From contig NZ_SSWH01000004.1 in NCBI RefSeq assembly GCF_004803505.1, forward strand, positions 186,001 through 250,000: a stretch of DNA of 64,000 nucleotides, written 5' to 3'. The translations under genes were made by a program, and so were the position numbers. Source of the stretch: Arthrobacter echini (GTDB taxonomy: Bacteria; Actinomycetota; Actinomycetes; Actinomycetales; Micrococcaceae). Under the pieces are notes generated by a model. That model was not told the DNA's origin. It made no database searches and saw nothing but the letters and a program-made list of their open reading frames with translations. Within the stretch, counting starts at the first letter, position 1. Each line of letters opens with the position of its first letter. Positions 53,602 through 64,000 of this stretch are shown in pieces.

Positions 53602-54381
53602 TCAGTTCCTGACCGTCTGATTGCCCTCCGTGTCCCGGGGCAGCAGCGCGGCGGCTTCCTCGTCGACGAGCACGGTCACATTTCCATGGAGCTGCAGGAT
53701 GGACGCCGGACAACGAGGCGTGATCGGTCCGTGCAGTGCGTCGTGAAGTGCCTGGGCCTTACCGCTTCCCTGGGCGATCAGCAGAAGCGCGTGTGCCTCG
53801 CGGATGGTGCCGAGACCCTGCGTGAGGCAGTGCGTGGGCACCTCCGCCAGCGAATCGAAGAAGCGCTCGTTGGCCCGGCGGGTGTCCTCGGTGAGGCGCT
53901 CCGTCCTGGTGCGGGAATCCAGTGCTGCTCCGGGCTCGTTGAACGCCAGGTGCCCGTTCCGGCCGATGCCGAGGACCTGGAGGTCCACACCGCCGGCTGC
54001 AGCGATGAGCCGCTCGTAATCGGCTGCAGACTCCTCCAGGTCGTCGACATGCGGGTTCGGTACATGGACGGTCGACGGATCGAGTCCGAGGGGCTCGACG
54101 ATCTCGCGTTCCAGTACCTTGACGTAGCTCTGCGGATGATTCGGCGGCAAGCCGACGTACTCGTCCAGGGCGAACCATCGCGTGGCGGCGAAGTTCCCCT
54201 TCTCTGCACTGAGGGCGGCGTAGAGCGGCGAGGGCGAGGAGCCGGTGGCGACGCCGATCACGGGCGCATCCGAGCCGCGCACCACTTCCATGACGAGGTT
54301 CGCCGCGGTCGGCCCGATGGTCGTCGAGTCGAGTCGGCGAACGACCGGAGGCGTGGTGCGGTGCAGTGCAGCGTGCGTCAT
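53602..54381 (-). CDS. nagB: Glucosamine-6-phosphate deaminase
   Basis: A 259-residue enzyme converting glucosamine-6-phosphate to fructose-6-phosphate and ammonia, the last step of amino-sugar breakdown. The fold signatures are VATGSSPSPLY (45-55), the catalytic Asp in FALDEYVGLP (Asp73) and GIGRNGHLAFNEPG with the active-site His. The length is that of monomeric Gram-positive NagB. The ATG at 54381 overlaps the regulator's stop by 4 bp; the long frame upstream to 55296 is spurious. It links the nanA-nanK-nanE product line to glycolysis. Confidence 0.95.
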   Translation of the reverse strand: MTHAALHRTTPPVVRRLDSTTIGPTAANLVMEVVRGSDAPVIGVATGSSPSPLYAALSAEKGNFAATRWFALDEYVGLPPNHPQSYVKVLEREIVEPLGLDPSTVHVPNPHVDDLEESAADYERLIAAAGGVDLQVLGIGRNGHLAFNEPGAALDSRTRTERLTEDTRRANERFFDSLAEVPTHCLTQGLGTIREAHALLLIAQGSGKAQALHDALHGPITPRCPASILQLHGNVTVLVDEEAAALLPRDTEGNQTVRN

Positions 54382-55115
54382 GGTGCAACCCCTAATTTGG
54401 CGAGTTCGGCTCGGATTCCGTCGAAATGGCATCTCAGCCTGGTCGCGGCCAGAGCCTTGTCTCCCGCCTCGACGGCCTCGAAGATGCCGCGGTGCATGGC
54501 GGCGGTTTCCACGAGATTCAGGAACGGGTCCCCGACCAGTTCCGAATGGATCTTCCGGTAGACCTTCCAGAAGACGGACATGAGATTGGACAGCAGCTCG
54601 TTGTCCAGTGGTTCGAAGAGCTGATAGTGGAACTGCTCGTCCGTCGCCGTGAACACCTCGCCGCGCAGGGCCGCCGACTCCATCCTGCGCACGGATGCCT
54701 CGATGACACCGAGGTGTTCGGGTGTCATGAGATCCATGGCTTCCCCGATCAGACCAGCTTCCAGTGCCTGCCGGACGTCGACCAGCTGGGTGGCCTCCTG
54801 ACCCTCGTGACGCAGGGACAACCTGCCGCGAAAGGTCAGCCCGTCGGTGAGCGCATCGAAGTTCCTCGGTGCGACGAACATGCCGAAACCATGGCGGATC
54901 TCGACCACTCCGAGTGCCTGGAGTACCTTCAGAGCCTCCCGCAGGGTGTTCCGGCCGATTCCGAGTGCCTGGGCGAGCTCGACCTCCGTGGGCAGCGGGT
55001 CGCCCGCGGAGAGGTCCCGTTCGAGGATCAGCTCCATGATCTCCGACTGGAGGGCACGGGATCGATTCTGTGCGCCGAACCGTGCTGGTGGAGCAGGAAC
55101 GTCTGGCGGTGTCAT
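54378..55115 (-). CDS. nanR: GntR/FadR-type (FCD domain) regulator of the amino-sugar locus
   Basis: A 245-residue regulator with an N-terminal winged helix (LQSEIMELILERDLSAGD, PTEVELAQALGIGRNTLREALKVLQ) and an all-helical FCD ligand domain (VDVRQALEAGLIGEAMDLM, DEQFHYQLFE, ETAAMHRGIFEAV). ATG 55115 is preferred because AGGAG is seven bases upstream; ATG 55121 sits too close. It is divergent from the ABC importer and cotranscribed with nagB. FCD regulators control sialic acid genes in several bacteria, so the ligand is probably N-acetylneuraminate or a downstream amino-sugar phosphate. The symbol reflects context and needs binding data. Confidence 0.82.
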   Translation of the reverse strand: MTPPDVPAPPARFGAQNRSRALQSEIMELILERDLSAGDPLPTEVELAQALGIGRNTLREALKVLQALGVVEIRHGFGMFVAPRNFDALTDGLTFRGRLSLRHEGQEATQLVDVRQALEAGLIGEAMDLMTPEHLGVIEASVRRMESAALRGEVFTATDEQFHYQLFEPLDNELLSNLMSVFWKVYRKIHSELVGDPFLNLVETAAMHRGIFEAVEAGDKALAATRLRCHFDGIRAELAKLGVAP

Positions 55116-55195
55116 GCACATGCTCCTGGATCGGCGAACGGAAGGGAGGGAACGAGTGGAACAGCGATGGACAGGGCGTCACTGCGCTCCCCACG

Positions 55196-55310
55196 TTATC
55201 GGACGTCCCATTTCCCGGAAGCCTCATGGCGCGGATGAACTCTATGCTTGACCGACGGCTGTGATGAACCTTACAGTTTCCGTAGTCGTTGGACATCCTA
55301 CGTCCGATAA
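55196..55310. promoter_or_regulatory. Divergent promoter region with two inverted operator-like motifs
   Basis: TTATCGGACGT (55196-55206) recurs inverted as ACGTCCGATAA (55300-55310). Between them lies a rightward promoter: TTGACC (55248-55253) and TACAGT (55272-55277), 18 bases apart. The right motif is about 17 bases past the expected start point, and the left one lies toward the regulator gene. This is the arrangement expected for repression of both directions by the FCD regulator, possibly with looping. Confidence 0.68.
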
Positions 55311-55334
55311 GTACCTGAAGGGTAAGGCACCGAG

Positions 55335-56945
55335 ATGAGCAACAGTTTCGAGACCAGTGGTCTCGTCAACGATTCCAGTCGGCGGAACTTCCTGAAGCTG
55401 GCCGGCGTCATGGGCGCTGCGGCGGCGTTCGCCGGATCCGTGGCAGCCTGCAGCCCGGGCGGAAGTCCCTCGTCCGAGGGCGGCTCCGAGGAGGGCGAGG
55501 GCTCGATCCAGGCCGGCATCTCGTACCAGCTCTCCACCGGGTTCGATCCCATGCTCGCCACCGGTGCGACGCCGCTCGCGGCGAACCTGCATGTGTTCGA
55601 GGCCCTCGTGGAACTCCACCCGGCGACCCGTGAACCCTACCTCGGGCTGGCCGCGGAAGATCCGACCAGGGTCGACGACACCACCTACGAGGTGCAGCTC
55701 CGCGACGGCGCCACGTTCCACAACGGGGAGCCCGTCACCGCGTCGGATGTGGTCTTCTCCTTCGAGAGGGTTCTCGACCCGGCCAACGAGTCACTGTTCG
55801 CCGGTTTCATCACGTTCATCGACAGCGTCACCGCGACCGACGACACGACCGTCAGGTTCTCGCTGAACTACCCGTTCCCCGCCTTCAGTCAGCGCATCTC
55901 GGTCATCAAGATCGTCCCGGAAGCGGCCGTGAGCGCCGATCCCGCAGAATTCGACCTCAATCCCATCGGCTCGGGCCCCTTCAGGCTTGTGTCCGCGGTG
56001 AAGGAGGACAGAATCGAGTTCGAGCGGTTCGAGGACTACAACGGCGAGTACCCCGCCCGCGTCCAGGACATGACCTGGCTGCTGCTGTCCGATCCCGCCG
56101 CACGCGTCGCCTCCATTCCCTCCCGCACCCAGGCGATCGAGGACGTGCCCTACCTCGACGTGGACCAGCTGGCCACCTCGGTCGAGGTCGAATCGGTCCA
56201 GTCGTTCGGGCTCCTGTTCCTCATGTTCAACTGCGAGTCGGACACCTTCTCGGACCGGCGCGTGCGGCAGGCACTGCACTACGCGATCGACACCGATGCG
56301 GTCATCGAGAAGGCGCTGCTCGGCAATGCCGCGGCCGCGACCTCCTACTTCCAGGAGGGGCACCCCTCCTACAGCGAAGCCTCCAACGTCTACGGCTATG
56401 ACGTCGACATGGCGACCTCGCTGCTCGAGGAGGCCGGCGCGCAGGACATCAACATCACGCTGACGGCGACCGACACGGGCTGGGTGGCACGCGTCGTCCC
56501 GCTCATCAAGGAGTACTGGGACGCCGTCGGTGTGAACACGACCCTGGAGATCCTCCAGTCGGCGGCGGTCTACGCGCCGGAGAAGGTCGACGGAGGGAAC
56601 TACGACGTGCTCTGCGCACCGGGCGATCCTTCCGTCTTCGGCAACGACGGCGACATCCTGCTCAGCTGGTTCTACCGCGGTGGAACGTGGATGGAGAATC
56701 GGGCCCGCTGGAGCGAGACACCGGAGTACGCCGAGGTGCAGGAGAGACTGGACGAGGCTGCCCAGCTCGAGGCGGACGAGGCGCAGGCGGTCCACGCCGA
56801 GGTCGTCAACATCGTGTCCGAGGAAGTCCCGCTGTACCCGCTGTTCCACCGCCAGCTGCCTACCGCGTGGGACGACGAAGCCCTCGACGGCTTCCAGCCG
56901 TTGCCGACCACAGGCCTGTCGTTCATCGGAGTAGGACGCAACTAG
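55335..56945 (+). CDS. ABC importer substrate-binding lipoprotein (family 5) with Tat signal
   Basis: A 536-residue solute-binding protein of the peptide/nickel/opine family 5. The N-terminus has a twin-arginine motif SRRNFLKLAG (Arg16-Arg17) followed by a hydrophobic stretch and lipobox SVAAC (Cys39), then a Ser/Gly/Glu-rich spacer. The mature part shows GFDPMLATGATPLAANLHVFEAL, LRDGATFHNGEPVTASDVVFSFERV and DRRVRQALHYAIDTD (parts). Family 5 proteins bind peptides but also sialic acid (SatA type). The four-gene layout matches, as I recall it, the sialic acid importer SiaEFGI of Corynebacterium glutamicum. First gene of the importer operon, a few bases after the operator region. Confidence 0.9.
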   Translation: MSNSFETSGLVNDSSRRNFLKLAGVMGAAAAFAGSVAACSPGGSPSSEGGSEEGEGSIQAGISYQLSTGFDPMLATGATPLAANLHVFEALVELHPATREPYLGLAAEDPTRVDDTTYEVQLRDGATFHNGEPVTASDVVFSFERVLDPANESLFAGFITFIDSVTATDDTTVRFSLNYPFPAFSQRISVIKIVPEAAVSADPAEFDLNPIGSGPFRLVSAVKEDRIEFERFEDYNGEYPARVQDMTWLLLSDPAARVASIPSRTQAIEDVPYLDVDQLATSVEVESVQSFGLLFLMFNCESDTFSDRRVRQALHYAIDTDAVIEKALLGNAAAATSYFQEGHPSYSEASNVYGYDVDMATSLLEEAGAQDINITLTATDTGWVARVVPLIKEYWDAVGVNTTLEILQSAAVYAPEKVDGGNYDVLCAPGDPSVFGNDGDILLSWFYRGGTWMENRARWSETPEYAEVQERLDEAAQLEADEAQAVHAEVVNIVSEEVPLYPLFHRQLPTAWDDEALDGFQPLPTTGLSFIGVGRN

Positions 56946-56955
56946 CACGACCACG

Positions 56956-56989
56956 GTCCATGGGGCGCCGCAAGCGGCGCCCCATGGAC
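56956..56989 (+). terminator. 15-bp hairpin between binding-protein and permease genes
   Basis: GTCCATGGGGCGCCG (56956-56970) and CGGCGCCCCATGGAC (56975-56989), loop CAAG: a perfect stem ten bases after the lipoprotein stop, with no T-run. It probably stabilises the upstream message and partly ends transcription, raising binding-protein level over the membrane parts, a common pattern in ABC operons. Confidence 0.65.
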
Positions 56990-57013
56990 ACCCCCCGGAT
57001 CGGAGTTCCCTGA

Positions 57014-57973
57014 ATGGTCATGTTCATCCGCCTGCTCGCCCGCCGATTGGCAGTGCTGCCGATCATGTTGCTCGGTGTCACCATCATGGTCTTCATCGTC
57101 CTCTCCGTGATCCCTGCGGATCGGGCCACGGCGGTGCTCGGCGAGAACGCCAGTGAGTCGGCGAAGGAGGCCTGGCGTGAGGAGCGTGGGCTCAACGATC
57201 CGCTGATCGTCCAGTTCTTCAGATACCTCGGGGGAGTGATCCGGCTCGATTTCGGTGTGACCAATCCGCCGGAGGAATCCGTCGCCACCAAGATCGCGGC
57301 GGCGTTCCCCATCACTCTCCAGCTGACCTTCCTCGGGGTGCTGCTCGCCGTCGTGCTCTCCCTGACCCTCGGTATCGCCGGCGCCCTCTACCGGGACCGC
57401 TGGCCGGACCAGCTGATCCGGCTCTTCTCCATCGCCGCCATCGCGACACCGTCGTTCTGGCTGGCGATCCTCCTCATCCAGTGGTTCGCCCTGCCCGAGG
57501 GCTCGATCTTCCCCACCGGTGGTCTCGGCTGGGCCGACGAGTTCGGCTTCGTGGGCTGGCTCTACTCCATGGCACTGCCCGCCCTCGCACTCGGTATTCC
57601 GGTCTCGGCGTCGCTGATCAGGGTCGTGAGGACGTCGATGGTGGAGGAACTCGACCGCGACTACGTGCGCACTGCCATCGGCAACGGCGTGCCGTACCGC
57701 ACCGTCGTCGCCCGCAACGTGCTCAGGAATGCACTGGTCACCCCGGTCACGGTGCTCGGTCTGCGGATCGGTTACCTGCTCGGAGGCGCCGTGGTCATCG
57801 AGAAGATCTTCAGTCTCAACGGCATGGGCGATCTGATCGTGGTCGGGCTGACCACCTCTGACACGAATCTCGTGCAGGGCGCGGTGCTGACCATCGCGGT
57901 CGCCTTCGTTCTCGTGAACATCGTCGTGGACCTTCTCTACCTCCTCATCAATCCCAGAATCCGGACGGTGTAA
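57014..57973 (+). CDS. ABC importer permease (DppB type)
   Basis: A 319-residue integral membrane permease with the DppB-family start (MFIRLLARRLAVLPIMLLGVTIMVF-like, given in part) and six hydrophobic helices. The cytoplasmic EAA loop is in RVVRTSMVEELDRDYVRTAIGNGVPYRTVVARNVLRNAL (segments), which contacts the ATPases. It is paired with the permease half of the following fusion protein. GGAG (57001-57004) precedes the ATG at 57014. Two bases separate its stop from the next gene. Confidence 0.92.
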   Translation: MVMFIRLLARRLAVLPIMLLGVTIMVFIVLSVIPADRATAVLGENASESAKEAWREERGLNDPLIVQFFRYLGGVIRLDFGVTNPPEESVATKIAAAFPITLQLTFLGVLLAVVLSLTLGIAGALYRDRWPDQLIRLFSIAAIATPSFWLAILLIQWFALPEGSIFPTGGLGWADEFGFVGWLYSMALPALALGIPVSASLIRVVRTSMVEELDRDYVRTAIGNGVPYRTVVARNVLRNALVTPVTVLGLRIGYLLGGAVVIEKIFSLNGMGDLIVVGLTTSDTNLVQGAVLTIAVAFVLVNIVVDLLYLLINPRIRTV

Positions 57974-57975
57974 GC

Positions 57976-60117
57976 ATGCGCAACTCACTAGCCGATCGAC
58001 TCAGCGCCACCGGTGCCCGCTTCACCGCCCTCAACCTCAGTTCCAAGCTCGCGCTCGGGTTCCTCGTCTTCATCGTGCTGGTCGCGATCTTCGGACCGTA
58101 CCTGGCGCCCTACGGTGAGAACGAGTCCGCCGCCCCGGTCGTGGCTCCGAACGGTGACTACCCCTTCGGTACGGACGGCCTGAGCTACGACGTCCTCTCA
58201 CGCCTGCTGTACGGCGCACGGGTGTCCATCTCGATCGGACTCGGCGCGGTCGCCGTCGCGCTGATCCTCGGCTCGATCTTCGGTGCCGTCGCCGCGACCT
58301 CCCGCAGGTTCGTCAGCGAGACCGTCATGCGTGTCCTGGACGTCGTCATGGCCTTCCCCGGCATCGCCCTCGCAGCGGCCCTGCTCTTCGCGCTGAGGCA
58401 GTACTCGCTGGATCTGTTCGGGTCCACCGTCCCGGTCCTCATCATCGCGATTGCGATCGTGTACACACCCCAGCTGGCCCGGGTGGTCCGGGCGAACGTC
58501 CTGTCCCAGTACGGCGAGGACTACGTCCGCGCCGAGCGCGTGATCGGAGCCTCCCGCACCTACATCCTGATCAAGCACATCGCACGCAACTGTGCAGCGC
58601 CGATCCTCGTCTTCGCGACGGTCATGGTGGCCGATGCGATCATCCTCGAGGCATCGCTGTCCTTCCTCGGTGCGGGTGTACAGCAGCCCGCCGCGTCCTG
58701 GGGCAATGTGATGGCCGATGGACGGAACGTCGTCTTCAGCGGAGCGTGGTGGCCCACGACCTTCGGCGGCATCACGATCCTGCTGACGGTCCTGGCGCTG
58801 AACATCCTGGCCGAGGGGCTCACGGATGCCATGGTGAATCCGGGGTCCTCGAAGCGCCGCCGGAGCAAGGACAAGGACCCTCTCGCTCCTGCCGCGGTCG
58901 CGACGGCGGCTCAGCCGTCGGCCCTCGACTCCGAGGGTGTCTCGATGACGCAGAAGGACGGGGAAGCGGCCCGCACGGGCGGCGAGACCGCCATTCCCAC
59001 CGGGCGTGGGGGCGGCGCCGACACTCCGGGGTCCCTCGAAGCCCTCTCGACCGAGCTGAACATGCTGGCCTCCGTCGAACGGCGCAGGAACGACCGGTTG
59101 CCGGCGGTCCAGGACGACGCTCCCGTCGTCCTGGAGGTCAAGGACCTCTCGATCCGCTTCCCCGAGCGGTACGGGGACACCGCCATCGTGGACAGGATGA
59201 GCTTCACCGTCCGCGAGGGCGAGACGATGGGCCTCGTGGGCGAGTCCGGATCGGGGAAGTCGCTCACCGCACTGGCGATCATGGGACTGCTCCCCCCGAC
59301 GGCCCGGCTGTCCGGATCCATCACGTTCAACGGCAAGGAACTGCTCACGAACAGTCCACGTGAGCGGGACCGCCTGTACAGGGGCCTGCGGGGAGAGCAG
59401 ATCGCGATGGTGTACCAGGACGCGCTGAGCTCACTGAACCCCTCGATGCTCGTCAAGGACCAGATGCGCCAGCTCACCCAGCGCAACGGTCGCAAGAGTC
59501 CCCGCGAGCTCCTCGAACTCGTCCAGCTCGATCCCGACCGCACGCTGAAGAGCTATCCGCACGAACTCTCCGGTGGTCAGCGTCAGCGCGTACTCATCGC
59601 CATGGCCCTGTCGCGGTCTCCGAAGATCGTCGTGGCGGACGAACCGACCACGGCCCTCGATGTGACGGTCCAGAAGCAGGTCGTGGATCTGCTCAACCAG
59701 CTGCGCGAGCAGCTCGGCTTCGCGATGGTCTTCGTCAGTCACGACCTGGCGCTCGTCGCGTCCCTCGCGCACCGCGTGACGGTGATGTACGCGGGCCAGG
59801 TGGTGGAGTCGGCAGACGTGCCGGAGCTGCTGACCAATCCGCGGCACGAGTACACCAAGGGTCTGCTCGGGGCGGTCCTGTCCATCGAGGCCGGTGCCGA
59901 GCGCCTTCACCAGATCCAGGGCACCGTCCCGTCGCCCAACGACTTCGCCTCCGGCGACCGGTTCGCCGAACGTTCGCTGCGCCCGGATGCCGATCCGGAG
60001 CAGGTGCTCGAGTTCGTGCAGGTGGGGGACGTGGACCACTACTGGGCCAGCCATGAGACGGTGAGCCACGGCTCCTCCGTTCTCGTCGACGACAGGACAG
60101 CGAGGCAGCAGCAATGA
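57976..60117 (+). CDS. ABC importer fused permease (DppC) and ATPase (DppD)
   Basis: A 713-residue fusion. Residues 1-285 are a DppC-type permease (GPYLAPYGENES, PFGTDGLSYDVLSRLLYGARVS, EDYVRAERVIGAS as the EAA loop, SFLGAGVQQPAASWG). A polar linker of about 100 residues (Ala/Lys/Asp/Gly-rich, about 290-385) leads to an ATPase with Walker A GESGSGKS (near 421-428), Q-loop VYQDALSSLNP, signature LSGGQRQR and Walker B VVADEPTTALD. The C-terminal oligopeptide-transporter extension continues to the end. Such fusions are known in actinobacterial importers, including sialic acid uptake. The frame is uninterrupted, so this is not an assembly join of two genes. It overlaps the next ATPase gene by 4 bp. 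Confidence 0.93.
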   Translation: MRNSLADRLSATGARFTALNLSSKLALGFLVFIVLVAIFGPYLAPYGENESAAPVVAPNGDYPFGTDGLSYDVLSRLLYGARVSISIGLGAVAVALILGSIFGAVAATSRRFVSETVMRVLDVVMAFPGIALAAALLFALRQYSLDLFGSTVPVLIIAIAIVYTPQLARVVRANVLSQYGEDYVRAERVIGASRTYILIKHIARNCAAPILVFATVMVADAIILEASLSFLGAGVQQPAASWGNVMADGRNVVFSGAWWPTTFGGITILLTVLALNILAEGLTDAMVNPGSSKRRRSKDKDPLAPAAVATAAQPSALDSEGVSMTQKDGEAARTGGETAIPTGRGGGADTPGSLEALSTELNMLASVERRRNDRLPAVQDDAPVVLEVKDLSIRFPERYGDTAIVDRMSFTVREGETMGLVGESGSGKSLTALAIMGLLPPTARLSGSITFNGKELLTNSPRERDRLYRGLRGEQIAMVYQDALSSLNPSMLVKDQMRQLTQRNGRKSPRELLELVQLDPDRTLKSYPHELSGGQRQRVLIAMALSRSPKIVVADEPTTALDVTVQKQVVDLLNQLREQLGFAMVFVSHDLALVASLAHRVTVMYAGQVVESADVPELLTNPRHEYTKGLLGAVLSIEAGAERLHQIQGTVPSPNDFASGDRFAERSLRPDADPEQVLEFVQVGDVDHYWASHETVSHGSSVLVDDRTARQQQ

Positions 60118-60914
60118 CCGATACCACTCCCGTCCTCGAACTGAAGGACATCAAGGTCTACCACCGGGCGCGTTCCGGGTCCCTGTTCCGGCCGAACATC
60201 GTGAAGGCCATCGACGGGGTCGATTTCACGATCAGTCGCGGAGAGACCGTCGGCGTGGTGGGGGAGTCCGGTTCCGGCAAGTCCACGCTCGCCACGGTGC
60301 TGGTGGGGCTCCAGGAGCCCACCGCGGGCGAGGTGCTCTTCAGGGGTGAGCGGGTCAATACCCGTGCTTCCTCCTCGAAGAAGCTCTTCGGGCGCGATGT
60401 CGGCGTGGTCTTCCAGGATCCCTCCACTGCGCTGAACCCACGGATGACCATCCATGACATCCTCACCGATCCGCTGCAGGTGCACGGCATCGGGAACCAG
60501 AGCAGTCGTGAGGCGAAGGTGAAGGATCTGCTGCAGCTGGTCGGTCTGCCGCAGTCCGCCGCGGAGGTCACACCCAATCAGGTCTCCGGTGGTCAGCGCC
60601 AGAGGGTCGCCATTGCACGCGCGCTCACCCTGGATCCCTCGATCATCGTCGCCGACGAGCCGACCTCGGCCCTCGACGTGTCCGTGCGGGCCCAGGTGCT
60701 GAATCTGCTCTCGGACCTGAAGAAGGAGCTCGACCTGGGGATGGTCTTCATCTCCCACGACATCCAGACAGTGCGCTATGTCTCGGACCGCATCTGCGTC
60801 ATCTACCTCGGCCGCATCGTCGAACAGGGTTCTGCCCACGAGGTCTTCGAGAACCCGACGAACGACTACACGAAGAGCCTCCTCGGAGCAGCTCCCAGCC
60901 TCCTGCACATCTGA
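60114..60914 (+). CDS. ABC importer ATPase (DppF type)
   Basis: A 266-residue ATPase, partner of the ATPase half of the preceding fusion. Walker A is GESGSGKST (50-58), Q-loop VVFQDPSTALNPRMT, signature VSGGQRQRVAIARAL and Walker B IIVADEPTSALD, with the H-loop SHD in VFISHDIQTV. It lacks the long oligopeptide-transporter C-terminal extension of some DppF proteins. ATG at 60114 overlaps the fusion gene stop. Fourth and last importer gene; the aldolase starts 20 bases later. Confidence 0.93.
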   Translation: MTDTTPVLELKDIKVYHRARSGSLFRPNIVKAIDGVDFTISRGETVGVVGESGSGKSTLATVLVGLQEPTAGEVLFRGERVNTRASSSKKLFGRDVGVVFQDPSTALNPRMTIHDILTDPLQVHGIGNQSSREAKVKDLLQLVGLPQSAAEVTPNQVSGGQRQRVAIARALTLDPSIIVADEPTSALDVSVRAQVLNLLSDLKKELDLGMVFISHDIQTVRYVSDRICVIYLGRIVEQGSAHEVFENPTNDYTKSLLGAAPSLLHI

Positions 60915-60934
60915 TACGAACACTGGAGAACATC

Positions 60935-61867
60935 TTGAACACCCGATCCACGCCCGGTTTCCACGGCGTCATCCCCCCCGTCGTCACGCCCCGCTCGAAC
61001 GACGGCGCCGTCGATACCGGTTCACTCGAGAGACTGACGAAGTATCTGCTCGACGGCGGCGTGAGCGGACTGTTCGTCCTGGGCTCCTCGGCCGAGGTCT
61101 CCTATCTGACCAATGAGGAACGGGACCTCGTCGTGAGGACGATCGTGGGCGTGAACGCGGGTCAGGTCCCGGTGGTCGTCGGAGCCAACGAACAGACGAC
61201 AGCGCGCGTCATCGACGAGGGACGACGACTGATCGACCTCGGGGCCGATGCGATCGTCGCCACGTCGCAGTTCTACGCCATCTCGGACCTGCGCGAGACG
61301 GAGGCACACTTCCGGTCGCTGCATGCCGCGCTCGACGTCCCCCTGCTGGCCTACGACGTACCCGTCCGGACTCACTTCAAGCTGCCGCTCGGTCTACTGG
61401 TGGCCCTCGCCCGGGACGGCGTGCTCGCGGGTGTCAAGGACTCCTCGGGCGACGACGTCTCGTTCCGCCAGCTCCTCCTCGCGACCAGGAACATCGAGAA
61501 CTTCGACGTCCTGACCGGACACGAGGTCGTGGTCGACGGAGCTCTCCTCGGCGGCGCGGACGGAGTGGTACCGGGGCTCGGCAATGTCGATCCGGCGGGC
61601 TACGCGGCGCTCTACGACGCGAGCCGCCGGGGTGACCACACGGCTGCGGCACGCGAGCAGGACCGCCTGGCCGAGGTCTTCAACATCGTCTATGCGCCCA
61701 CACCGGGACGTGTATCACCGGGGGCCGCGGGTCTGGGCGCATTCAAGACGGCGCTCATGCTCCTGGGTGTCATCGACACGAACGTGATGTCCGAACCGAT
61801 GGTACGGCTCGACGAGGACGAGACGGCTCTCATCCGCACCGTCCTCGAGAACACCGGACTGCTCTGA
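60935..61867 (+). CDS. nanA: N-acetylneuraminate lyase-like aldolase (DapA/NanA superfamily)
   Basis: A 310-residue class I aldolase. The Schiff-base lysine is Lys168 in GVKDSSGD and the catalytic tyrosine Tyr140 in LLAYDVPVRT. The family loop that is usually GSTGE in sialic acid lyase is GSSAEVSYL (50-58) here, so the Thr-Gly part is changed. From context, cleavage of N-acetylneuraminate to ManNAc and pyruvate is most likely; other 2-keto-3-deoxy acids are possible. The TTG start at 60935 has GGAGA six bases upstream. It lies between the importer and nanK/nanE. Confidence 0.82.
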   Translation: MNTRSTPGFHGVIPPVVTPRSNDGAVDTGSLERLTKYLLDGGVSGLFVLGSSAEVSYLTNEERDLVVRTIVGVNAGQVPVVVGANEQTTARVIDEGRRLIDLGADAIVATSQFYAISDLRETEAHFRSLHAALDVPLLAYDVPVRTHFKLPLGLLVALARDGVLAGVKDSSGDDVSFRQLLLATRNIENFDVLTGHEVVVDGALLGGADGVVPGLGNVDPAGYAALYDASRRGDHTAAAREQDRLAEVFNIVYAPTPGRVSPGAAGLGAFKTALMLLGVIDTNVMSEPMVRLDEDETALIRTVLENTGLL

Positions 61868-61872
61868 GCCCC

Positions 61873-62838
61873 GTGCCACACGTCGTCGGCCTCGACCTGG
61901 GAGGCACCAAGATCGCAGGCGGGGTCGTCGATGTGTCCGGAGGTCTGGCGCTCCACCGCGAGGTTCCCACACCGGCACGGGACGGCGCCGAAGCCGTCCT
62001 CGATGCGGCCGCGTCCCTCGTAGCGACACTCGTCAGCGAGGCCGGAGCGCAGGACCTGGTCGTCCAGGGGCTGGGGATCGGCTCGGCAGGGGTGATCGAC
62101 TCCGACAGCGGCGTCGTCGTCTCCGCCACCGACGCGATCACGGCCTGGGCCGGCACGCGACTCACCGCAGGACTCGCCGCACGGACGGGTCTGCCCAGCA
62201 CGGCGATCAACGACGTCCACGCGCACGCCCTGGGCGAGAGCTGGCTCGGGGCAGGCGCGGACGCGGAGAGCATCCTGTTCGTCGGCATGGGCACGGGTGT
62301 CGGTGGCGGTTTCGTACTGCGCGGCGAAGGCCTCGAAGGTGCCACCCACACGGCCGGCCATGTGGGCCACATCGCATCCCCGCTCGCGTACGACGACGGC
62401 GTACCGCTGCCCTGCACCTGCGGAGGTGCCGGGCACGTCGAGGCAATCGCATCAGGACCGTCCATCCACGCCCTGTTCCAGCGACTCGGTGGCACCTCCG
62501 CGGCGGACACGCGCGCCGTCTATCGACTCGCCGTCGCGGGAGACCGGCATGCCCTTGCCGCCGTCCAGCGTGGTGCAGCGGCAGCCGGTCAGATGATCGG
62601 CGGACTCGCCAATGTCCTCGACCCCCACGTCGTGGTCGTCGGGGGAGGACTCGCCTCGGCGGGTCCGCTCTGGTGGGACGCCATGCAGGATGCCGCACGG
62701 CAGGAACTCCTGCTCCCGCTGCTCGGCCTCGACATCGTCCCGGCCGAACTCGGCACCACGGCCGCCATCCGGGGAGCGGCACGCCGGGCCCTGGCGCTCA
62801 TCGACATCCCTGAAGGACACCATGCTGCAGCTCGATAG
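61873..62838 (+). CDS. nanK: ROK family kinase, probable N-acetylmannosamine kinase
   Basis: A 321-residue ROK sugar kinase. ATP motif DLGGTK is at 8-13, the catalytic Asp in INDVHAHALGE, VGGGLAS near the end. The zinc motif normally CxCGxxGCxE reads CTCGGAGHVE (181-190), so the third Cys is His188; the upstream metal His in GHVGHIASPL is kept. A His ligand could still hold zinc. Context (aldolase before, epimerase after) makes ManNAc phosphorylation likely, but glucokinase or GlcNAc kinase share the fold. GTG start at 61873. It overlaps nanE by 17 bp. Confidence 0.88.
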   Translation: MPHVVGLDLGGTKIAGGVVDVSGGLALHREVPTPARDGAEAVLDAAASLVATLVSEAGAQDLVVQGLGIGSAGVIDSDSGVVVSATDAITAWAGTRLTAGLAARTGLPSTAINDVHAHALGESWLGAGADAESILFVGMGTGVGGGFVLRGEGLEGATHTAGHVGHIASPLAYDDGVPLPCTCGGAGHVEAIASGPSIHALFQRLGGTSAADTRAVYRLAVAGDRHALAAVQRGAAAAGQMIGGLANVLDPHVVVVGGGLASAGPLWWDAMQDAARQELLLPLLGLDIVPAELGTTAAIRGAARRALALIDIPEGHHAAAR

Positions 62839-63496
62839 TCTCCGTTCCTCCTTGATCGTCTCCTGCCAGGCGTATCCCGGCGAACCGATGAGGGATCCGC
62901 GAACCACCGCGCAGTTCGCGCAGTCCGCCGTCATCGGTGGAGCAGCAGCCGTGCGGGTCCAGGGCATCGCCGACATCCAGGCCACCCGATCGGCCGTCGA
63001 GGTTCCCGTGATCGGACTGTGGAAGGACGGGCAGGAGGGTGTCTTCATCACGCCGACCGTGCATCACGCACTGGCCTGTGCGCAGGCGGGCGCGCACATC
63101 GTCGCGCTCGACGGCACCCGGAGACCACGTCCCGACGGACTCTCCTTGCAGGAGACCATCACCAGGGTGCACGGCGGATCGAACGCTTTGGTGATGGCCG
63201 ATTGCGGCTCCCTTGCCGACGCACGCGCCGCGGAAGAGGCCGGTGCCGACCTGATCGGCACCACTCTCGCCGGATACACCGGAGAACGGCCCAAGACCAC
63301 CGGCCCCGATCTCGATCTCCTGCGCGAACTCGCGGGATCCGGTCTGGGCGTACCGATCATCGCCGAGGGCCGTATCCACACCCCTGCCCAGGGGCGTCAG
63401 GCACTCGACGCGGGCGCTTTCGCCGTCGTCGTCGGCACCGCCATCACCCACCCGGCCACCATCACGGACTGGTTCGCCTCGGCGCTGTCGGCATGA
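62822..63496 (+). CDS. nanE: N-acetylmannosamine-6-phosphate 2-epimerase
   Basis: A 224-residue TIM-barrel enzyme converting ManNAc-6-P to GlcNAc-6-P. Diagnostic parts are SLIVSCQAYPGEPM, GLWKDG (catalytic Lys), MADCGSLADARAAEEAGADLIGTTLAGYT (in parts) and the catalytic Glu in IIAEGRIHTP. ATG 62822 with GAAGGA upstream is chosen; the frame back to 62612 lies inside nanK. GlcNAc-6-P then needs NagA before NagB; nagA is not in the window. Confidence 0.93.
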   Translation: MLQLDSLRSSLIVSCQAYPGEPMRDPRTTAQFAQSAVIGGAAAVRVQGIADIQATRSAVEVPVIGLWKDGQEGVFITPTVHHALACAQAGAHIVALDGTRRPRPDGLSLQETITRVHGGSNALVMADCGSLADARAAEEAGADLIGTTLAGYTGERPKTTGPDLDLLRELAGSGLGVPIIAEGRIHTPAQGRQALDAGAFAVVVGTAITHPATITDWFASALSA

Positions 63497-63584
63497 GCAG
63501 CTCCACCATGCCTGCGCGTTCCATCATCCCGACGGATTCACCCGATCAGTTCTCCCTGCAGACCCCCTCGAAAGGACACCACTC

Positions 63585-63935
63585 ATGAGGCTCGAAGGCT
63601 GGCACATCGTCATCGTCGTCGTTCTGGCGATCGTTCTGTTCGGCGCTCCCAAGCTCCCCGGACTTGCGCGGAGCGTGGGGCAATCGCTGCGCATCTTCAA
63701 GTCCGAGGTCAGGCAGCTCAAGGATGAGAACACCACGGCTGGATCCGGGCACGACGAGCACGACGTCACCGATGTCACCGACGCGCACCGGCAGGACCCT
63801 CGGCCCAGTGCTGCGCACACCGCGCAGCCGGCGTCCACGCACAGGCACACGGTCCAGGACGAGCACCCGGTCCAGGACGAGCACCCGGTAGGTCGGGCGC
63901 AGCACAGCGGTTCCTCGTCACCAAGCGTCCCGTAG
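63585..63935 (+). CDS. tatA: TatA/E-like twin-arginine translocase subunit
   Basis: A 116-residue protein: one membrane helix (about 7-19), the FG hinge (Phe19-Gly20) and an amphipathic helix (KLPGLARSVGQSLRIFKSEVRQL, about 23-45, read in part). A long acidic/His-rich tail carries DEHDVTDVTDAH and a duplicated VQDEHP. This is the TatA architecture of the twin-arginine protein exporter. The tail is longer and more His/Asp-rich than usual. It follows nanE by 88 bases with GAAAGGA upstream. tatC is not visible. Its linkage to a Tat-signalled lipoprotein gene is of interest. Confidence 0.88.
   Translation: MRLEGWHIVIVVVLAIVLFGAPKLPGLARSVGQSLRIFKSEVRQLKDENTTAGSGHDEHDVTDVTDAHRQDPRPSAAHTAQPASTHRHTVQDEHPVQDEHPVGRAQHSGSSSPSVP
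63851..63886 (+). repeat. 18-bp tandem duplication inside tatA
   Basis: GGTCCAGGACGAGCACCC occurs twice head to tail (63851-63868, 63869-63886), giving the in-frame repeat VQDEHP-VQDEHP in the TatA tail. Likely replication slippage; copy number may vary between strains. Confidence 0.85.
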
Positions 63936-63997
63936 TCCGGTGTACCTACCCTGAGTCATCCCCACCGGGAGAAGTTCCCAACCATCTGGAGGACGTC

Positions 63998-64000
63998 GTG
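63998..64000 (+). other. Possible start codon of the next gene (cut by window edge)
   Basis: GTG in the last three bases, five bases after GGAGG (63988-63992). Probably the next gene of the same direction; its identity cannot be known here. Confidence 0.4.

Follow-up and report, generated by a model that had tools for sequence, protein, structure and literature searches.

A second tatA gene in a predicted sialic acid operon of Arthrobacter echini and the recurrence of tat genes beside nan loci in Micrococcaceae and Microbacteriaceae

The nan locus and its genes

Here we describe a second tatA gene, tatA2, that lies in a predicted sialic acid operon of Arthrobacter echini and has counterparts beside the sialic acid (nan) genes of several relatives. 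The locus closes a 64,000-nt stretch of contig NZ_SSWH01000004.1 (positions 186,001 to 250,000; hereafter the window, to which coordinates refer unless another locus is named) in a 3.18-Mb genome assembly of 41 contigs that is 99.99% complete. It is built as a divergent pair at the end of the window, the minus strand carrying nagB and the gene of a GntR/FCD regulator, and the plus strand an importer followed by nanA, nanK, nanE and tatA2. A first-pass annotation of this DNA had named nagB, the FCD regulator, a four-gene importer, nanA-, nanK- and nanE-like genes and tatA, and all of these are found where it had placed them; it had also let the cluster end in tatA, whereas a sialidase gene, nanH, starts 62 bp after tatA2 and lies mostly outside the window. 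The features are as follows.

53602..54381, minus strand: NagB-like glucosamine-6-phosphate isomerase gene (PF01182, E=3.5e-20), with a 4-bp overlap with the regulator gene
54378..55121, minus strand: GntR/FCD regulator (PF07729 and PF00392), NanR-like by context; presumed operon repressor
55248..55277, plus strand: sigma-70-like promoter TTGACC-18-TACAGT, the putative operon promoter
55289..55307, plus strand: predicted 19-bp near-palindromic operator TTGGACATCCTACGTCCGA, just 3' of the -10 element
55335..56945, plus strand: satA-like sialic acid binding lipoprotein (SBP_bac_5), with twin-arginine signal SSRRNFLKLAG and lipobox
57014..57973, plus strand: importer permease (BPD_transp_1)
57976..60117, plus strand: importer permease-ATPase fusion (BPD_transp_1 and ABC_tran in a single 713-aa frame)
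60114..60914, plus strand: second importer ATPase (ABC_tran)
60935..61867, plus strand: NanA-like aldolase (DHDPS family), TTG start
61873..62838, plus strand: NanK-like ROK kinase (PF00480), with a 17-bp overlap with nanE
62822..63496, plus strand: NanE epimerase (PF04131, E=1.3e-55; NCBIfam NF002231 above cut-off)
63493..63588, plus strand: 31-codon open frame (direct reading), with 4-bp overlaps (ATGA) with the nanE stop and the tatA2 start
63585..63935, plus strand: tatA2 (PF02416, E=3.4e-16), the second TatA of the genome
63998..64000, plus strand: start of the sialidase gene nanH, GTG start codon (the rest outside the window, L004:999-3926)

The binding lipoprotein anchors the functional assignment. 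Its top PDB matches are 5za4, 5z99 and 5yyb (E about 1e-181, residues 56-535), and 5z99 is described in an excerpt of PMC11364026 as SatA with N-acetylneuraminic acid (Neu5Ac) bound, so that the importer has what marks the ST3/SatA type, an SBP_bac_5 protein near a sialic acid binder proven by structure. Because of this match and of the sialidase beyond tatA2, we assign the locus to the SatA/ST3 type of sialic acid operon, ST3 being the common actinobacterial importer type according to part of a survey of such clusters (PMC8754123). For the permease-ATPase fusion, a single match of at least 600 aa occurs in 139 of the 162 loci having any match to it. Some names elsewhere in the operon are softer. 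The aldolase has as its top PDB match 5c54 (by name a dihydrodipicolinate synthase/N-acetylneuraminate lyase, E=9e-80) and scores higher in NCBIfam as DapA, yet under cut-off; the kinase matches the N-acetylmannosamine kinase models, also below cut-off. With no NCBIfam cut-off reached by either, NanA and NanK are probable names based on context and these weaker matches. Likewise, the top NCBIfam match of the FCD regulator is NanR at 85 bits, far below the cut-off of 260. Gene spacing is tight across the operon, and the sole terminator-like pattern scored near tatA falls within the tatA2 gene.

The nanH product is a 975-aa sialidase (BNR_2) whose best solved relatives are the sialidases 1eut and 1wcq (E about 1e-131), and it constitutes a second possible Tat cargo that the first-pass annotation overlooked. 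Further beyond the window, a DyP-type peroxidase with the Tat-type start SRRGLF (L004:4795-6084) lies about 0.9 kb past the sialidase and converges with nanH. An inverted repeat of 1.09 kb (97.8% identical; L004:3634-4719 and L004:11241-12323) contains the nanH 3' end plus the small frame after it, and flanks the peroxidase and subsequent genes.

A second TatA and a lipoprotein with a twin-arginine signal

By profile search, the genome has two strong matches to TatA and one to TatC. TatA1 adjoins TatC on contig C33, where TatC sits between TatA1 and a gene judged by eye to be a helicase (L005), while TatA2 lies on contig C36; a TatB-like gene on a third contig (C40) scores 48.3 bits, below the model cut-off of 56.5. 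The other tatA beside tatC that the first-pass annotation had advised looking for is therefore present on another contig, and the arrangement it had named as fatal to its proposal, a sole tatA with tatC next in line, is absent: tatA2 is a second copy, followed by nanH, and the single tatC found is the one beside tatA1. Both TatA models recognize TatA2 clearly (PF02416, 58.7 bits against a cut-off of 21; NCBIfam TatA NF001854, 83.9 against 72), and its sequence LFGAPKLPGLARSVGQSLRIFKSE contains the FG hinge (judged by eye) and amphipathic segment that are features of TatA. TatA2 differs from TatA1 at 5 of 43 residues in the conserved part. Its tail had been called unusually acidic and rich in histidine; the histidine content holds (9 of 65 residues in TatA2 and 4 of 57 in TatA1), whereas the acidity is ordinary (10 of 65 and 8 of 57, respectively).

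Compared with the nan-linked TatA of the two nearest named loci (L106 and L107, below), TatA2 gives nonsynonymous divergences (dN) of 0.043 and 0.049 and synonymous divergences (dS) of 0.687 and 0.726, over 43 codons only, values that fit a retained function. As the searches yielded a single TatB and a single TatC, the likeliest partner of TatA2 is the housekeeping TatB-TatC receptor, as far as gene content can indicate. As in specialised, substrate-linked Tat systems, the tat gene at the locus is an extra copy; unlike in those systems, it comes without a TatC of its own in A. echini, although nan-linked sets in A. bussei, Cryobacterium and Leifsonia do include one.

The twin-arginine signal attributed to the binding lipoprotein is borne out, the N-terminus SSRRNFLKLAGVMGAAAAFAGSVAAC being exact and PF10518 (TAT_signal) scoring 23.3 bits against a cut-off of 22.7, with TIGR01409 also above its cut-off. 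We compared 125 distinct binding proteins of at least 40% identity whose N-terminus was readable; the twin-arginine pattern occurs in 114 of them, including all 17 encoded in tat-linked loci. SatA is the cargo with such a signal that is common to the linked loci.

Recurrence beside nan genes and a shared operator

Conservation of the nanE-tatA link, which the first-pass annotation had suggested checking, extends to the neighbouring genus. Full-strength NanE was found in 19 of the 29 genomes searched, and in 13 of these a strong TatA lies downstream on the same strand, 98 to 1070 bp beyond the NanE match, while none of the 10 genomes lacking nanE has a second strong TatA (Fisher p about 0.0004, without correction for kinship). 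Three of these loci (L066, L067 and L069), read gene by gene, have the order nanE-esterase-tatA with each pair overlapping by 4 bp; the L066 esterase belongs to Abhydrolase_3. The nearest named loci to that of A. echini come from a metagenome-assembled genome labelled Arthrobacter sp. (L106) and from A. bussei (L107), which has nanE-esterase-tatB-tatA-tatC and also another tatA-tatC pair whose surroundings resemble those of A. echini TatA1 (flanking genes matched by eye). In L106, a similar small frame stands between nanE and tatA, with GTGA/ATGA overlaps. The 31-codon frame of A. echini is a possible remnant of the esterase or of a tatB segment, and may preserve translational coupling after loss of either; we leave its origin from an esterase at possible because the common ending could be merely a ribosome site.

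Additional tat genes also occur away from nan genes. One of the 19 nanE-bearing genomes (G146) has an extra tatA 45 kb from nan (L105:9353-9600), clustered with a thiamine pyrophosphate enzyme and, by eye, an acyl-carrier-like protein. Another Micrococcaceae genome (G018) has four TatA/B-type matches; at L103:8929-13000 it carries one tatA and one tatB-like gene next to those of a phosphoesterase and of a purple-acid-phosphatase-like protein whose signal reads SRRGFF, possibly the same principle applied to phosphate.

To look across families we took the best 80 loci by permease match, with families assigned from the organism names. Within the stretch read, 19 of these 80 hold tat genes, 11 from Micrococcaceae and 8 from Microbacteriaceae. 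Three Cryobacterium loci have tatA-tatC-tatB beside nan, three Leifsonia loci have tatC-tatA facing tatB, and Agromyces italicus and Subtercola boreus have tatA alone. A. bussei and the three Cryobacterium and three Leifsonia genomes encode two TatC each, the second tatC standing with tatA beside nan, and Agromyces and Subtercola each possess another strong TatA, next to TatC at a different site; the nan-linked tat genes of Microbacteriaceae and A. bussei are extra copies. Curtobacterium also has two TatC, with no tat gene within the nan stretch read. As actinobacteria normally keep tatAC together and tatB elsewhere (per a passage of PMC4383559), a single cluster of tatBAC or tatACB is unusual. 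Roughly estimated, the probability that chance would give 8 of 12 Microbacteriaceae loci is <1e-11, and that of the three independent events is <0.001, both depending on assumptions about kinship and event counting. In a TatC tree of 29 rows, the label 'beside nan' needs three changes, all forced by well-supported branches, and the A. bussei TatC pair are each other's nearest rows. On the simplest reading, A. bussei, Leifsonia and Cryobacterium acquired their nan-linked tatC separately. A single clade of nan-linked TatC was rejected (0% of 200 bootstrap trees).

A shared putative regulatory site accompanies these arrangements. A 19-bp near-palindrome, TNGGAC(A/G)TCNNA(C/T)GTCCNA, is conserved about 15-75 bp 5' of the estimated start of the binding-protein gene, and a strict pattern match is present in 53 of 148 such upstream stretches, chiefly from Micrococcaceae with some from Microbacteriaceae. 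This nan-locus site, TNGGACRTCNNAYGTCCNA, differs from the operator of E. coli NanR, described in part of PMC8012715 as a GGTATA repeat, and is not of that (GGTATA)n type. In A. echini the operator (55289-55307) starts 11 bp past the -10 of the sole promoter-like site in 55000-64000, a promoter match that is weak on its own, as shuffles average 0.5. The exact operator occurs once in the 3.18-Mb genome and is the sole site with <2 mismatches. No separate operator site precedes tatA2 in the window; tatA2 would depend on the operon promoter.

In the tat-linked loci of Microbacteriaceae, such a site also stands before the tat genes. Using a position weight matrix built only from sites upstream of binding-protein genes in the same and related loci, we find a site at most 120 bp from a tat start in all 8 tat-linked loci of Microbacteriaceae, at 12.9-21.3 bits: 18.6 for tatA of the three Cryobacterium loci, 14.5 for Agromyces tatA, 15.2 for Subtercola tatA, and 12.9, 21.3 and 21.3 for Leifsonia tatA/tatB, the weakest being that of L158. 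Indeed, every site of at least 12 bits in the 8 loci belongs to the binding-protein promoter, a tat promoter or nanH (L144). Random 120-bp windows of these loci, binding-protein promoters excluded, reach 12.9 bits or more in 0.5% of cases, and per the site list these matches are the tat and nanH sites themselves. Scores stay at or below 6.0 in 17 of the 18 tat loci that lie apart from nan. In the other families of the order, 91 sites of at least 12 bits occur in 1.54 Mb, counted irrespective of gene.

A proposed sialic acid control of export capacity and competing explanations

We consider it probable that the second tatA has been built into the sialic acid operon as a means of raising Tat export capacity in step with its cargo. 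The FCD regulator would sit on the operator at 55289 and be released by sialic acid or a metabolite of it; a single transcript would then supply the SatA-type lipoprotein, the importer, NanA, NanK and NanE, TatA2 and the sialidase. The binding protein would fold, leave by Tat via its twin-arginine signal and be anchored as a lipoprotein, while TatA2 would join the housekeeping TatB-TatC receptor and add the component needed in excess, thereby aiding the export of SatA and perhaps of NanH. This reading draws on gene content, the second copy, gene spacing, recurrence, the operator at the tat promoters of relatives and the conserved twin-arginine signal. We also lean, if only slightly, towards a wider claim: that the nan operons of Micrococcaceae and Microbacteriaceae have repeatedly captured tatA, tatBAC or tatACB under a sialic acid operator as nutrient-switched Tat modules, with the export machine and its lipoprotein cargo induced together.

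Several results weigh against these two proposals. The nanE-tatA link is missing in 6 of the 19 nanE-bearing genomes of the neighbouring genus, and in a wider family sample only 4 of the 36 nan stretches read contain tat genes, each of them belonging to that genus. An order-wide sample of 80 nan loci (other families of the order, genomes with a strong TatC, about 10 kb around NanE) yielded tat genes in none; since these stretches end shortly past the regulator, an arrangement of the Microbacteriaceae type beyond the regulator would mostly be missed. A SatA-type gene is present in 44 of these 80 loci. Two or more TatC occur in 23 of 396 genomes, of which 8 have NanE, so extra Tat sets have other uses too, and an order-wide association of second TatC genes with nan is not supported. 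The TatC tree, with its three label changes, would in principle also allow a single gain plus two losses, and the TatA nucleotide tree is too short for resolution. The remaining one of the 18 tat loci away from nan, in Frondihabitans, scores 13.9 bits, above the weakest tat-linked score; its operator-like site (L207:3070) lies about 0.6 kb 5' of the sole tatA-tatC found, in a genome whose nan stretch is without tat genes. Finally, the twin-arginine pattern is present in 97 of 108 distinct binding proteins with no tat gene in the stretch read, and extra TatA is therefore not required for the SatA class of cargo. The signal was accordingly rejected as a special mark of tat-linked loci; it is a trait of the transporter family, to which extra tat genes are a local addition. 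Thus the first-pass suggestion that this TatA is co-regulated with a Tat-exported binding lipoprotein gains from the second copy, its recurrence and spacing and the operator at relatives' tat genes, but not from the signal, which by itself needs no TatA2; dedicated export by this TatA stays a conjecture.

The identity of the cargo allows another view, in which the extra TatA is mainly for NanH, or for both cargoes equally, the secreted sialidase being a bulky folded protein that would need more TatA. We regard this as unlikely. The short distance from tatA2 to nanH is suggestive, and some sialidases of linked loci begin with an RRxF-type motif (e.g., RRPFK in L069, L108 and L109), but the start of A. 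echini NanH, NRRAVRTP, is a weak Tat motif with no TAT_signal match. Of 23 linked loci (some genomes appearing under two locus ids), 11 contain a nanH match of at least 45% identity in the stretch read, yet the other 12 stretches have none (e.g., L106, L107, L111, L113-L115 and L134-L137), whereas SatA is in all; the count covers the stretches read only, and the gene may sit elsewhere in those genomes. In the nearest relative, L106, nanH is not present after tatA.

It is also conceivable, if improbable, that tatA2 is a neutral passenger, a duplicate that is carried along with the nan block and merely happens to be expressed. That block does look mobile, strong NanE being found in none of the 7 other sampled genomes of the source genus, and the majority of nan loci read have no tat genes. 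Set against this are the three separate arrivals of tatC on the simplest reading, the nan operators at tat promoters in several arrangements, the retained 4-bp gene overlaps and the few amino-acid changes in TatA2 relative to many silent ones. That tatA2 belongs instead to neighbouring iron-uptake-like genes, nan adjacency being accidental, is very improbable and was rejected: the DyP peroxidase is a classical kind of Tat substrate encoded close by, a similar frame directly follows tatA in L106, and Bacillus TatCy loci are often linked to efeB (an excerpt of PMC3827258), but the peroxidase gene is on the opposite strand and none was seen after tatA in the listed stretch of L066, L067, L069 or L107, while nan is always present.

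A sialic acid-responsive supply of TatA, as we propose, has partial precedents. In Bacillus a specialised Tat set is linked to its substrate, PhoD with TatAdCd, and the likeness to B. subtilis TatAd-TatCd/PhoD lies in a Tat paralogue linked to a Tat substrate and to nutrient state (phosphate there), with the other set elsewhere (per part of PMC3827258). Here, in contrast, the cargo is a sugar-acid binding lipoprotein rather than a phosphodiesterase, TatA alone is duplicated in the window, the system is of the actinobacterial TatABC type, and the predicted control is by a GntR/FCD-type operator. Campylobacter jejuni also has two TatA, and different substrates there depend on one or the other (abstract of PMC4148689); its TatA2, however, is without two key residues, whereas the present TatA2 is near TatA1 and lies in a catabolic operon. 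With the SatABCD/ST3 importer the locus shares its SBP_bac_5 binding protein, and it differs in the Tat-type lipoprotein signal, the permease-ATPase fusion and, in some species, tat genes in or beside the operon. In its main text, the actinobacterial survey cited above (PMC8754123) uses none of the terms tat, tatA, translocase and twin-arginine, and no paper joins nan and tat genes in its title and the start of its abstract among the matches listed.

The Tat system is often regarded as a constant housekeeping machine; in the nan-linked loci, its genes seem to be turned on by a single nutrient along with their would-be cargo. The locus raises the question of why a plain binding lipoprotein without a known cofactor goes via Tat, and provides a natural setting in which to test whether export is limited by the supply of TatA. 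If our reading is true, the tatA-only form would mean that Tat capacity is set by TatA supply alone, with TatA dosage as a natural point of control over export, and would add an export step to the account of actinobacterial sialic acid use.

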